Of a stretch of DNA of 64,000 nt, positions 10,924 to 13,079 are shown one piece after another. Source of the stretch: Pseudomonas sp. BN417. Lineage in GTDB: Bacteria; Pseudomonadota; Gammaproteobacteria; Pseudomonadales; Pseudomonadaceae. Positions within the stretch are counted from its first letter, which is position 1; the number at the start of each line of letters is the position of its first letter. The stretch spans positions 108,384-172,383 of the forward strand of contig NZ_SSOJ01000139.1 of NCBI RefSeq assembly GCF_029871205.1, read 5' to 3'. A model generated the notes under the pieces. It ran no database searches. It worked only from the letters and a program-made list of their open reading frames with translations, and was not told where the DNA came from. A program made the translations under genes and the position numbers.

Positions 10924-11189
10924 AAAAGCACTGGACCTTAGGCGCGGGTCACCCGTCTCCCTTCAGGGGAAGGAGGCCAGTCTTATCCGGGACACTCGGC
11001 AGAAATCGCCCACCGGAGCCAGATGCAGGGTGCGCCATCTGCACCGACCCTGCACTGCGTCAAACTCCTGGTGCGCACGGCACACCCTAGGGGATCAGTT
11101 TCATCCTGCTGCTCCGCCGAGTCGCCACAGGCAAAGCCGGTGACTCATTACCACGTCCCAAAGACGTATATGGACTCCTCCCCAGCGGC

Positions 11190-11554
11190 AAGCCGTCCAG
11201 CAAGCGGTCCAACTCCACCAGGATTGCCAGGATGATGGCGCGTTCCTCCTCGCTCGGCGCCTCGGCTTCCGGTAGCGAGGCCAGGGCCTGGGGTAGGCGC
11301 GTTCGATATCCTGGCGGCGGTAGTGGTTGGCCAGCACACGCTTGGCCACCGTGCTGAGGAAGGCGCGGGGCTCGAGGATGGCTGGCTGATCGCGGGCCAG
11401 GAGCACATGGAGAAAGATGCTGGGCCAGGTCGGCAGCATTCTGCGGGCAGCCCAGGCGGCGTGGCCAACCGGTCAGCCAACTGTGGTGGTCGCTGTACAA
11501 CGGGTGCAGGGATTCGGCCGGCGGGGGCGGAGATGCGTCGGCGCCGTGATTCAA
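11190..11554 (-). pseudogene. FecI-like ECF sigma factor, frameshifted and 3'-truncated
   Basis: Read on the minus strand, three frames join to give an ECF-sigma sequence: first LYSDHHSWLTGW and RRLGCPQNAADLAQ, then after a shift near 11430 LLARDQPAILEPRAFLSTVA and KRVLANHYRRQDIERAY, then after a second shift near 11295 ALASLPEAEAPSEEERAIIL and VELDRLLDGLP. This matches FecI-type sigma region 2 and the linker; region 4 is absent and the frame runs into unrelated sequence. FecI sigmas activate siderophore-receptor operons and are usually followed by fecR, which is also absent. The gene is dead as read, and sequencing error cannot account for the missing 3' end. Boundaries are approximate. Confidence 0.8.
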
Positions 11555-11721
11555 GGGCTGGATCCGGAAACAAGTGGGAATGCTTCGCGCTCTATAGTTG
11601 CCGGCCGGATTTCAGCAATAATCTGAAATTCGCGATGAAGTCTGCATTCTTAGTGTAGGAAGGCAGGAACCGCGAAAACCGACGTGTGGTCAATTGGTAA
11701 CAATCCTTGGAGAAACCCCCC

Positions 11722-12129
11722 ATGCTTTCGCGTCCCTGCAACCGTCGTCTGGCTTCCGTCCTGATTGCCAGCCAGTTCGCCTTCCTCGCCCAGATGCCCC
11801 TGGCTCAGGCGGCCATGATCGGCACGCCTCAGGCCATGCAGGAGCAACAGCTGCCGCAGCACCAACCCGTCGACCGCGAACAGTTGCGCGCCATGCTCGA
11901 CGACCAGCAGGTCCAGCAGAAACTCGAATCCCTCGGCGTACCGCGCGAGCAGGTGGAAGCCCGGATCGCCAGCCTGACGCCGGCGGAACTGCAGCAGTTC
12001 AACCAGCGCCTGGAGCAGGAACCGGTCGGTGGCTGGGTCGGCATCATCGTGCTGTTCCTGGTGATCTTCATCATCACCGACATGCTCTGCGCCACTGACA
12101 TCTTCAGCTTCATCAAGTGCATCAACTGA
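11722..12129 (+). CDS. PA2779-family small secreted protein with C-terminal hydrophobic tail
   Basis: A 135-residue protein. A signal peptide covers about residues 1-31 (VLIASQFAFLAQMPLAQA). A polar, helix-prone, Gln/Glu-rich middle follows (DREQLRAMLDDQQVQQKLES, then AELQQFNQRLEQE). Next come Gly-Gly at 103-104 and a strongly hydrophobic 31-residue tail with cysteines at 123 and 133. The start is ATG 11722, nine bases after TTGGAG; an earlier TTG overlaps that site and was rejected. The stop overlaps the start of the C39-like peptidase gene (TGATG), so the two are coupled. The pair exists in PAO1 as PA2779/PA2778, as I recall. The function is unknown. The tail could be a membrane anchor or a released peptide. 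Confidence 0.8.
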   Translation: MLSRPCNRRLASVLIASQFAFLAQMPLAQAAMIGTPQAMQEQQLPQHQPVDREQLRAMLDDQQVQQKLESLGVPREQVEARIASLTPAELQQFNQRLEQEPVGGWVGIIVLFLVIFIITDMLCATDIFSFIKCIN

Positions 12130-13079
12130 TGCGCCCCTGGCTGGCCGTGGTGATCCTGGCCCTGGCCGGTTGCGCGGGGCAGCAACCCATGCTGCCCCCC
12201 CAGAGCGACCGCCTGCCGCAGCGGGTGGAGCTCACGCAGACGCCTTTCTATCCGCAGGAAATCTACCAGTGCGGCCCGGCCGCGCTTGCCACCGTGCTGG
12301 TGCAGCGTGGGGTGAAAACCTCGCCCGAGGAACTGGCGCCGAAGGTCTACCTGCCGACCCGGCAGGGCAGCCTGAAGCTGGAGCTGGTGGCTGCCGCGCG
12401 CCAGCACGGCATGCTGGTCTACCCGCTGGAGCCGAACCTGGACGCGCTGCTGGCCCAGGTAGCGGCGGGCAACCCGGTGCTGGTGATGCAGAACCTTGGC
12501 CTGGACTGGCTGCCGCGCTGGCACTTCGCGGTGGTGGTGGGTTTCGACCGGTCCCGGGATGAACTGGTACTGCGTTCCGGCACCGAGAAGCGCTGGATAA
12601 CCGACCTGCGCAGCTTCGACCGCACCTGGGAGCGGGCCGAACGCTGGGCCGTGGTGACCTTGCCGGCAGAGCATTTGCCGGCCGAGGCGCGCCTGGAACC
12701 CTGGATCAAGGCAGCCAGCGACCTGGAGGAAACCTCCCAGCGGCCGGTGGCCGAACGCGCCTACCGCACGGCCGCCGAGCACTGGCCGCAGGAAGCCCTG
12801 CCGCTCTTCGCCCTGGCCAACGCGCGCTATGCCGATGGCGACCGCGACGGCGCGGAGCAGGCCCTGCGGGAAAGCCTGAAGCGCAAGCCGGACTACGCCC
12901 TGGGCTGGTTCAACCTGTCCGAGGTGCTCAACGAGAAGGGCTGCGCCAGCCAGGCCAGCCAGGCCAGGGCCTGCGCCCGGCAACTGGCGCCCGATGACCC
13001 GCGCCTGGCGACTCCTTTGGTAGAAGCTGGCGGGAAGGGACAGTGCGTGGCGTTGCCGATGTGCAGTGCGGGGCGGTAG
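12129..13079 (+). CDS. C39-like cysteine peptidase lipoprotein with TPR repeats
   Basis: A 316-residue lipoprotein (signal with lipobox LAGC, Cys15). Residues 33-150 form a papain-like C39 domain with catalytic cysteine 48 in QCGPAAL and histidine 132 in RWHFAVVVGFD. The expected third-residue position reads VLRSG instead of the usual NDP. Residues 175-290 hold tetratricopeptide-like helices (AYRTAAEHWPQEALPLFALA, then DGAEQALRESLKRKPDYALG). ABC-transporter C39 domains cleave after double glycine; this protein has no transporter part and should face the periplasm. Its ATG overlaps the stop of the PA2779-like gene, which carries a Gly-Gly site. An alternative GTG start at 12117 is less likely. 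Confidence 0.85.
   Translation: MRPWLAVVILALAGCAGQQPMLPPQSDRLPQRVELTQTPFYPQEIYQCGPAALATVLVQRGVKTSPEELAPKVYLPTRQGSLKLELVAAARQHGMLVYPLEPNLDALLAQVAAGNPVLVMQNLGLDWLPRWHFAVVVGFDRSRDELVLRSGTEKRWITDLRSFDRTWERAERWAVVTLPAEHLPAEARLEPWIKAASDLEETSQRPVAERAYRTAAEHWPQEALPLFALANARYADGDRDGAEQALRESLKRKPDYALGWFNLSEVLNEKGCASQASQARACARQLAPDDPRLATPLVEAGGKGQCVALPMCSAGR

Follow-up and report, generated by a model that had tools for sequence, protein, structure and literature searches.

A lipoprotein C39-type peptidase paired with a small exported membrane protein in Pseudomonas: predicted cleavage at a Pro-Ala-Gly motif

Most of what is known of C39 proteases concerns the domains with which peptide exporters cut off leaders. 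In the window analysed here, a 64,000-nucleotide stretch of the genome of Pseudomonas sp. BN417, the gene for a C39-like peptidase overlaps that of a small exported protein with two adjacent glycines, which raises the question of whether the peptidase acts on its neighbour. A preliminary description of the window, made from its letters, had proposed such a processing system. The small gene runs from an ATG at 11722 to a TGA at 12127-12129, and the stop codon shares bases with the ATG of the peptidase gene at 12129, which confirms the overlap (TGATG) given in that description. The residue numbers given there (Gly103-Gly104, Cys48, His132 and a tail of 31 residues) were also right. The features of the two genes are as follows.

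11722..12129, plus strand: PA2779-family (DUF6627) small exported membrane protein, 135 aa (NF033919, 132.6 bits; PF20332, 107.6 bits)
11722..11811, plus strand: Sec signal peptide, residues 1-30 (AQA/A), read off the sequence; Ala30 in 134/146 aligned rows
11812..12021, plus strand: acidic helical domain, residues 31-100, proposed carrier or leader (AlphaFold2 helices 52-99, modest confidence)
12022..12033, plus strand: Pro-Val-Gly-Gly, residues 101-104, proposed recognition or cleavage motif (family form PAG[GAS])
12034..12126, plus strand: 31-residue tail, comprising membrane helix 105-121 and a conserved post-membrane segment with Cys123 and Cys133 (AlphaFold2, conservation)
12129..13079, plus strand: PA2778-family cysteine peptidase, a 316-aa lipoprotein (NF033920, 356.7 bits; AlphaFold2 pLDDT 94.8)
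12171..12173, plus strand: lipobox Cys15 (LAGC, +2 Ala); Cys in 123/124 paired rows, +2 never Asp
12216..12674, plus strand: C39 domain, residues 30-182 (VIA Z 17.1 to 3erv, 16.1 to 6mpz, 15.9 to 3k8u)
12255..12257, plus strand: Gln43, oxyanion-hole position; Gln in 122/124 paired rows
12270..12272, plus strand: Cys48, predicted catalytic nucleophile; in 124/124 paired and 0/25 unpaired family rows
12522..12524, plus strand: His132, predicted catalytic base; in 124/124 paired and 2/25 unpaired family rows
12576..12578, plus strand: Ser150, in the place of the ComA catalytic Asp (profile alignment to ComA)
12693..13013, plus strand: TPR repeats, residues 189-295 (sequence and structure matches to TPR proteins)

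On the minus strand of the window, at 11087-11573, overlapping frames gave no Pfam match at E 0.01 (two frames scanned); they look to us like a FecI-type sigma factor gene broken across frames. The window proteins are plain members of NF033919, NF033920 and Pfam DUF6627 (cut-offs of 40 bits for NF033919, 150 for NF033920 and 27 for PF20332). The peptidase also scored above the Pfam cut-offs for Peptidase_C39 (27.6 bits against 22) and Peptidase_C39_2 (33.6 against 24), and several TPR models matched it, all below their cut-offs. Public libraries already carry names for both families, and annotators could see the pair. Their NCBIfam and Pfam entries are names without a function, in agreement with the earlier statement that no role had been assigned. 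No functional study of PA2778/PA2779, DUF6627 or the family names was found in the open-licence literature, and the papers listed on C39 lipoproteins and FapD targets included none on the pair. In the accessible part of a swarming study, PA2779 of PAO1 figures only as a neighbour divergent from bswR (PMC3985676), and a table in PMC3697988 gives PA2778 as having a lost start codon, common to P. aeruginosa clone CHA strains. In Pseudomonas stutzeri DSM4166, according to an excerpt of PMC10155442, a PA2779-family gene ranks in the top 3% by expression under each of the four conditions.

The layout read earlier for the small protein, with a signal peptide, a helical middle, Gly103-Gly104 and then a 31-residue tail holding Cys123 and Cys133, was borne out. 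In the AlphaFold2 model (55 sequences, pLDDT 70.4), helices span residues 52-99, the chain breaks at 100-104 and a further helix runs from 105 to 121, so that the motif sits in a loop with helix 87-99 before it and helix 105-121 after it. Gly72, Arg81 and Glu89 of the helical domain are invariant in the 55 rows. Across 146 aligned rows the motif is nearly fixed, with Pro101 in 141, Ala102 in 140 and Gly103 in 142. Gly-Gly and the two tail cysteines had been put forward as possibly invariant, and alignment supported neither. Among 208 distinct tails, pooled from two samples, the residue after the motif glycine is Gly in 88, Ala in 75, Ser in 21, Glu in 18, Gln in three and Thr in one, and two tails have Ala-Ala-Ser instead. 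These counts rule out a literal Gly-Gly (88/208) as an invariant site, and indicate that the conserved element is Pro-Ala-Gly followed by a mostly small residue. Homologues with an intact peptidase and no Gly-Gly had been named as evidence against processing; taken literally such homologues exist, but a weaker rule that suits C39 proteases, Gly-[Gly/Ala/Ser], holds in 184/208 distinct tails, with Gly-Glu/Gln/Thr in 22.

The tail cysteines were likewise rejected as an invariant feature, since 141 of 203 distinct tails have none. They are lineage-specific, with two in 62 tails and one in no tail, and the pair is always spaced C-x9-C (62/62). This spacing was found mainly in Pseudomonas- and Marinobacter-like lineages, with a few others (for example loci L050 and L108). 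The all-or-none pattern looks like that of a disulphide-bonded or otherwise coupled pair. Mean relative entropy was highest for the motif (3.40 bits per column) and next highest for the post-membrane segment (2.81), with lower values for the membrane helix (1.86) and the helical domain (1.83); the C-terminal end of PA2779 is the best conserved stretch beyond the motif. Short-tail copies without this conserved end make up 10/146 rows.

The partner had been described as a predicted lipoprotein with a C39 fold, and the lipobox Cys15, Cys48 in QCGPAAL and His132 in WHFAV all agree with this. The nearest solved folds by VIA were a C39-like peptidase (3erv), the double-glycine protease LahT (6mpz) and the ComA peptidase domain (3k8u); the 6mpz superposition covered 135 residues at 2.3 A with a Z of 16.1. 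In a profile alignment, the Cys and His of ComA pair with Cys48 and His132. The TPR repeats, absent from the preliminary description, are clear in the structure model of PA2778. Absence of Asp at the +2 position of a lipoprotein leads to outer-membrane sorting. Since residue +2 is never Asp in the paired rows, an outer-membrane location is predicted by this usual rule.

The usual third catalytic residue had been reported as not seen, and it is indeed absent: Ser150 stands where ComA has Asp, and position 150 of the 124 paired rows holds Ser (111), Thr (11), Ala (1) or Gly (1), with no catalytic Asp. Ser or Thr at this position was found in 122/124 paired rows, compared to Ser in 9/24 unpaired family rows. 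Such retention fits a role of Ser/Thr150 in catalysis, and some papain-like enzymes are described in an excerpt of PMC10318531 as working with Ser/Thr or with a dyad. Asp140 and Glu85 are conserved in the peptidase and are candidates for the third acid. Thr150-Asp151 replaces Ser-Gly in 15 rows (L004, L010, L011, L255 and others) with substrates that are all Gly-Glu; these rows come from Marinobacter, three genomes of one family, one Vreelandella and one MAG labelled Agromyces. Co-variation between the peptidase and the residue after Pro-Ala-Gly was set aside, as it comes mainly from one lineage and 5/20 Gly-Glu rows are without Thr150-Asp151, in a regex tally that misreads a few rows.

If PA2779 and PA2778 are a dedicated substrate and its enzyme, near-obligate pairing, an invariant dyad and loss of the nucleophile without the partner are predicted. 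In a sample of 398 genomes of the phylum, PA2779 was over the cut-off in 40 and PA2778 in the same 40 and in G261, which has only a Cys-less PA2778 relative (locus L042). Among 369 genomes of the class, PA2779 was found in 89, PA2778 in 86 and both in 85. The mismatches in this sample include PA2779 matches at a contig end (G407, G596), a peptidase in pieces (G571) and, in the opposite direction, a peptidase cut by a contig end (G724); in G742 the PA2779 frame is 105 aa with a shortened membrane helix, and no PA2778 was over the cut-off. The family sample (119 genomes) gave PA2779 in 62 and PA2778 in 67, and the five extra genomes (G261, G752, G772, G789, G792) have Cys-less relatives only. 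Both genes, with Gln, Cys and His, were present at 80/80 loci of a named collection, which consists of the best 80 loci, overlaps the first sample in organisms and was gathered with one search pattern containing the His. PA2779 lies upstream on the same strand at 127/127 family loci with both genes, and at one of the loci (L124) another gene stands between the two. The two genes are a near-obligate pair.

No third gene is conserved beside them, as judged by blastp clustering of flanking ORFs at 171 loci. The clusters comprised PA2779 (113), an FAD oxidoreductase (35) that usually lies on the other strand, frames antisense to PA2779 (26), a threonyl-tRNA-synthetase-type gene farther off (24), an ABC-ATPase (13), a histidine kinase (12) and smaller ones; a single representative was scanned for each of the five named clusters other than PA2779. 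The ABC-ATPase (13/171 loci) occurs in varied places on either strand, and the one member scanned was an ABC ATPase without a C39 match; the one antisense representative scanned gave no match. A search for defence systems with PADLOC returned one weak match only, PrimPol over the TPR part. As to mobile cargo, PA2778 was found in no phage record and PA2779 in one plasmid record.

The catalytic residues followed the pairing. Cys48 and His132 are both present in 124/124 intact paired peptidases (the 127 two-gene loci less L018 and L173, with broken frames, and L149, at a contig end). In 24 unpaired family members, Cys48 is present in none, being replaced by Ser or Gly, and His132 in one. A further unpaired member, L210 (G542), is full-length with its TPR repeats, and has Gly for Cys48 and its His kept. 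The nucleophile is therefore found in 0/25 unpaired family members, a set that leaves out L048 and the contig-end fragments L211 and L212. Thus the idea of an enzyme and its substrate stood as regards pairing, the invariant dyad and nucleophile loss without the partner, and fell as regards an invariant Gly-Gly and invariant tail cysteines.

Locus L048 (2617-6266, G113:C319) encodes a lipoprotein with TPR repeats before the C39 domain, Asp kept at the acid position and Cys and His present; it scored 77.5 bits against the PA2778 profile, below the cut-off. Beside it lie a caspase-family gene and a gene whose 296-aa product, an exported membrane protein, matches DUF6627 weakly (16.4 bits, cut-off 27, E 0.01), and from these sequences it is a possible remote relative of the PA2779/PA2778 system. 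Because of the neighbour's weak match, L048 was not taken as an unpaired Cys/His exception and was counted neither for nor against.

A natural comparison is provided by genus g478, in which the pair is present in G759 (L214) and G781 (L185). The MFS and FAD-oxidoreductase flanks of G772 (L187) and G792 (L198) align with those of L214 at 86-95% DNA identity; at both loci PA2779 is absent, Cys48 is replaced by Gly and His132 by Arg or Gln, and the TPR end is gone. A six-frame search of these two loci gave no remnant of PA2779, and a short-chain dehydrogenase gene occupies its place in L187. In the genome from which the window derives, the window carries the intact pair, and another contig has a Cys-less PA2778 copy (43% identity over 200 residues). 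This TPR-less paralogue (L041:4404-5072, G000:C85) lies beside an FAD oxidoreductase gene and has Ser for Cys48 and Arg for His132. The Cys-less clade around it gave dN/dS values of 0.04-0.15 (28 pairs, eight copies); on these values its members are not pseudogenes in decay but retained, predicted pseudopeptidase lipoproteins under purifying selection. Values for genus g478, which came from untrimmed frames whose ends overlap, were left out of account.

How often the active site was lost was examined with trees. The best tree of 97 rows, with 73 of the 124 paired peptidases and 24 unpaired ones, required three changes; that of 113 rows, which included L210 and had 88 paired and 25 unpaired peptidases, required four. 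In both, the number was equal for the Cys and pairing labels. Strongly supported branches alone force one change, and a single clade of unpaired peptidases was not rejected (AU p 0.28). The g478 synteny and the position of L210 in another family are better evidence than the trees for more than one loss event.

PA2779 also occurs without an adjoining peptidase. Gly-[Gly/Ala] is kept in 18/18 such copies, 17 of which lie in genomes with the pair elsewhere (Cys and His checked in 11/17), the exception being G742; some are of the short-tail kind and end just past the membrane helix. More than one PA2779 copy per locus was found at 6/127 loci (L095, L119, L128, L129, L132, L150) and at 2/80 named loci. 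The orphans would fit a substrate served in trans, and many copies to one peptidase would fit the pattern expected of a protease with several substrates. The window genome itself has an orphan short-tail PA2779 paralogue (L040:4137-4493, G000:C143) that ends in PAGG and a hydrophobic stretch, beside what are presumably ScpA/ScpB-like chromosome-partition genes.

An active site confined to PA2778 copies with the small gene beside them makes PA2779 the most probable target of the peptidase. From the observed pairing, dyad conservation, co-loss and predicted fold we infer a cleavage, its bond, the topology and the role of the product: we think it fairly probable that PA2778 is a periplasmic C39-type protease, free of any ABC exporter, that cuts Sec-exported PA2779 at the Pro-Ala-Gly motif. 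PA2779 would be exported by Sec, lose its signal peptide and stay anchored to the inner membrane through the helix near its C-terminus. PA2778, as a periplasm-facing lipoprotein, would bind the helical domain and cut Pro-Ala-Gly-(Gly/Ala/Ser), which lies exactly where this domain gives way to the membrane helix. The bond would lie after Gly103 or after residue 104, and the Gly-Glu tails suggest that it may be after Gly103. Such a cut would separate a helical carrier from a 31-residue hydrophobic membrane peptide. The working product would be an abundant envelope membrane peptide rather than a bacteriocin, a role that we favour because the tail end is conserved and because of the top-3% expression given in the PMC10155442 excerpt; alternatively, the product may be the released helical domain.

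Several observations sit uneasily with this model. The Gly-Glu/Gln/Thr and Ala-Ala-Ser tails break a strict double-glycine rule. An outer-membrane lipoprotein, as predicted for PA2778, is one step away from an inner-membrane substrate, which counts against cleavage. The all-or-none cysteine pair points to an oxidising compartment, which conflicts with a C-terminus in the cytoplasm. Also on this side are Ser/Thr in place of the triad Asp, the displaced Leu-X3-Glu-Leu motif described below, G742 with its PA2779 frame and no PA2778 over the cut-off, and the independence of the losses, which depends on synteny and on where the best trees place the unpaired rows.

The conserved glycine may instead be a hinge before a membrane anchor, with PA2778 acting elsewhere and PA2779 tethering or regulating it. 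Glycines often terminate helices, and a working complex would also lose peptidase activity and the small gene together. We nevertheless regard this as unlikely, since a hinge has no need of a near-invariant Pro-Ala-Gly (Pro in 141, Ala in 140 and Gly in 142 of 146 rows), and since the catalytic Cys is lost where PA2779 is gone while the C39 fold is kept, under purifying selection in one clade. Loss of the Cys with retention of the fold suggests that PA2779 is the target. In C-terminal sorting signals, the tail is usually conserved in composition only. A sortase-like PA2778, which would cut Pro-Ala-Gly and transfer the helical domain to an envelope amine with the tail as a mere sorting signal, is quite unlikely: the post-membrane segment is better conserved than the exported domain (2.81 against 1.83 bits per column), the mean net charge past the membrane helix is just +0.7 (136 long tails; the window tail ends in FIKCIN), and the substrates found are all from one family. 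It would agree with the substrate paralogues away from the peptidase (18 orphans), the multi-copy loci (6/127; 2/80 named) and the 10/146 short-tail rows without the conserved end, and the order of signal peptide, domain, Gly motif, membrane helix and short tail resembles that of the GlyGly-CTERM sorting signals in the accessible text of PMC3237569.

The pair could instead produce a bacteriocin or toxin-like peptide through C39 maturation, as C39 proteases mature bacteriocins and a tail set free would be hydrophobic, possibly with a disulphide bond (C-x9-C) in Pseudomonas. The tail, however, is conserved across families and classes of the phylum, the cluster representatives scanned included no recurring exporter or immunity-like gene beside the pair, and plasmid and phage records held one PA2779 and zero PA2778, respectively. 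Expression in the top 3% in all four conditions in P. stutzeri DSM4166 (PMC10155442, excerpt) also argues against this reading, which we consider very improbable. Among the matches listed for 55 PA2779 members, none was to a bacteriocin-leader family (25 families, NCBIfam or Pfam).

The pair was compared with known systems. PA2778 is like the C39 domains of ComA, LahT and PCAT1 in fold, Gln, Cys-Gly motif and His, and most PA2779 tails are like their substrates in having Gly-[Gly/Ala/Ser] after an Ala (position 102). In contrast to those enzymes, PA2778 has no ABC domain, is a lipoprotein with TPR repeats, would act in the periplasm if at all and has Ser/Thr in place of Asp; PA2779 differs from those substrates as a membrane protein whose C-terminal part is conserved and which has its own signal peptide. 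The signal peptide and the paired peptidase's lack of an ABC domain do not match export by a peptidase-containing ABC transporter. LahT-like transporter substrates, in the accessible part of PMC6363468, typically end in Gly-Gly, Gly-Ala or Gly-Ser behind Leu-X3-Glu-Leu, and those of LahT itself almost always have Ala at -3, as PA2779 has at 102 (140/146 rows). The leader consensus there, Leu(-12)-X3-Glu(-8)-Leu(-7), was not found at that distance in PA2779: Leu85-X3-Glu89-Leu90 lies at -20/-16/-15 from Gly104, eight residues farther from the glycines.

Closer in location is FapD, a Sec-exported Pseudomonas C39 protease needed for FapC secretion, with an essential Cys, as excerpted from PMC5557850. 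PA2778 is predicted to share with it Sec export and a transporter-free C39 protease in the Pseudomonas periplasm. FapD differs in serving the fap operon, with a target that is unclear in that excerpt, whereas PA2778 has a lipobox, TPR repeats and a dedicated neighbour. The GlyGly-CTERM/rhombosortase system, as described in extracts of PMC3237569, also places a Gly motif directly before a C-terminal membrane helix and has a co-distributed protease with adjacent and remote substrates. Its protease is of the rhomboid family of serine proteases rather than C39-type, and its many targets usually resemble one another in the tail only, which has a basic cluster at its end. The unpaired PA2778 relatives are Cys-less C39 proteins like the inactive C39-like domains of type 1 secretion, but they are stand-alone lipoproteins whereas those domains are parts of ABC transporters (PMC5557850, excerpt).

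What appears to be new here is the predicted C39-type processing outside an ABC exporter. In roughly one in ten genomes sampled from the phylum (40/398), the pair is predicted to supply a periplasmic C39 lipoprotein protease together with a membrane substrate dedicated to it. More tentatively, with less assurance than we attach to the cleavage itself, the pair may serve a Sec-routed maturation of an envelope peptide. A helical leader would deliver the 31-residue membrane peptide and a lipoprotein C39 protease with Cys, His and Ser would free it in the periplasm, with a Cys-x9-Cys disulphide in some lineages and, in one clade, Cys-less copies retained as substrate-free lipoproteins. If this is true, C39 leader cleavage has been rebuilt outside the ABC exporter as housekeeping in many Pseudomonadota, not for signalling or warfare. 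The natural loss series offers ready-made controls. If cleavage is confirmed, an abundant, conserved and so far unrecognised envelope peptide would be revealed, and the two families would gain a testable role.
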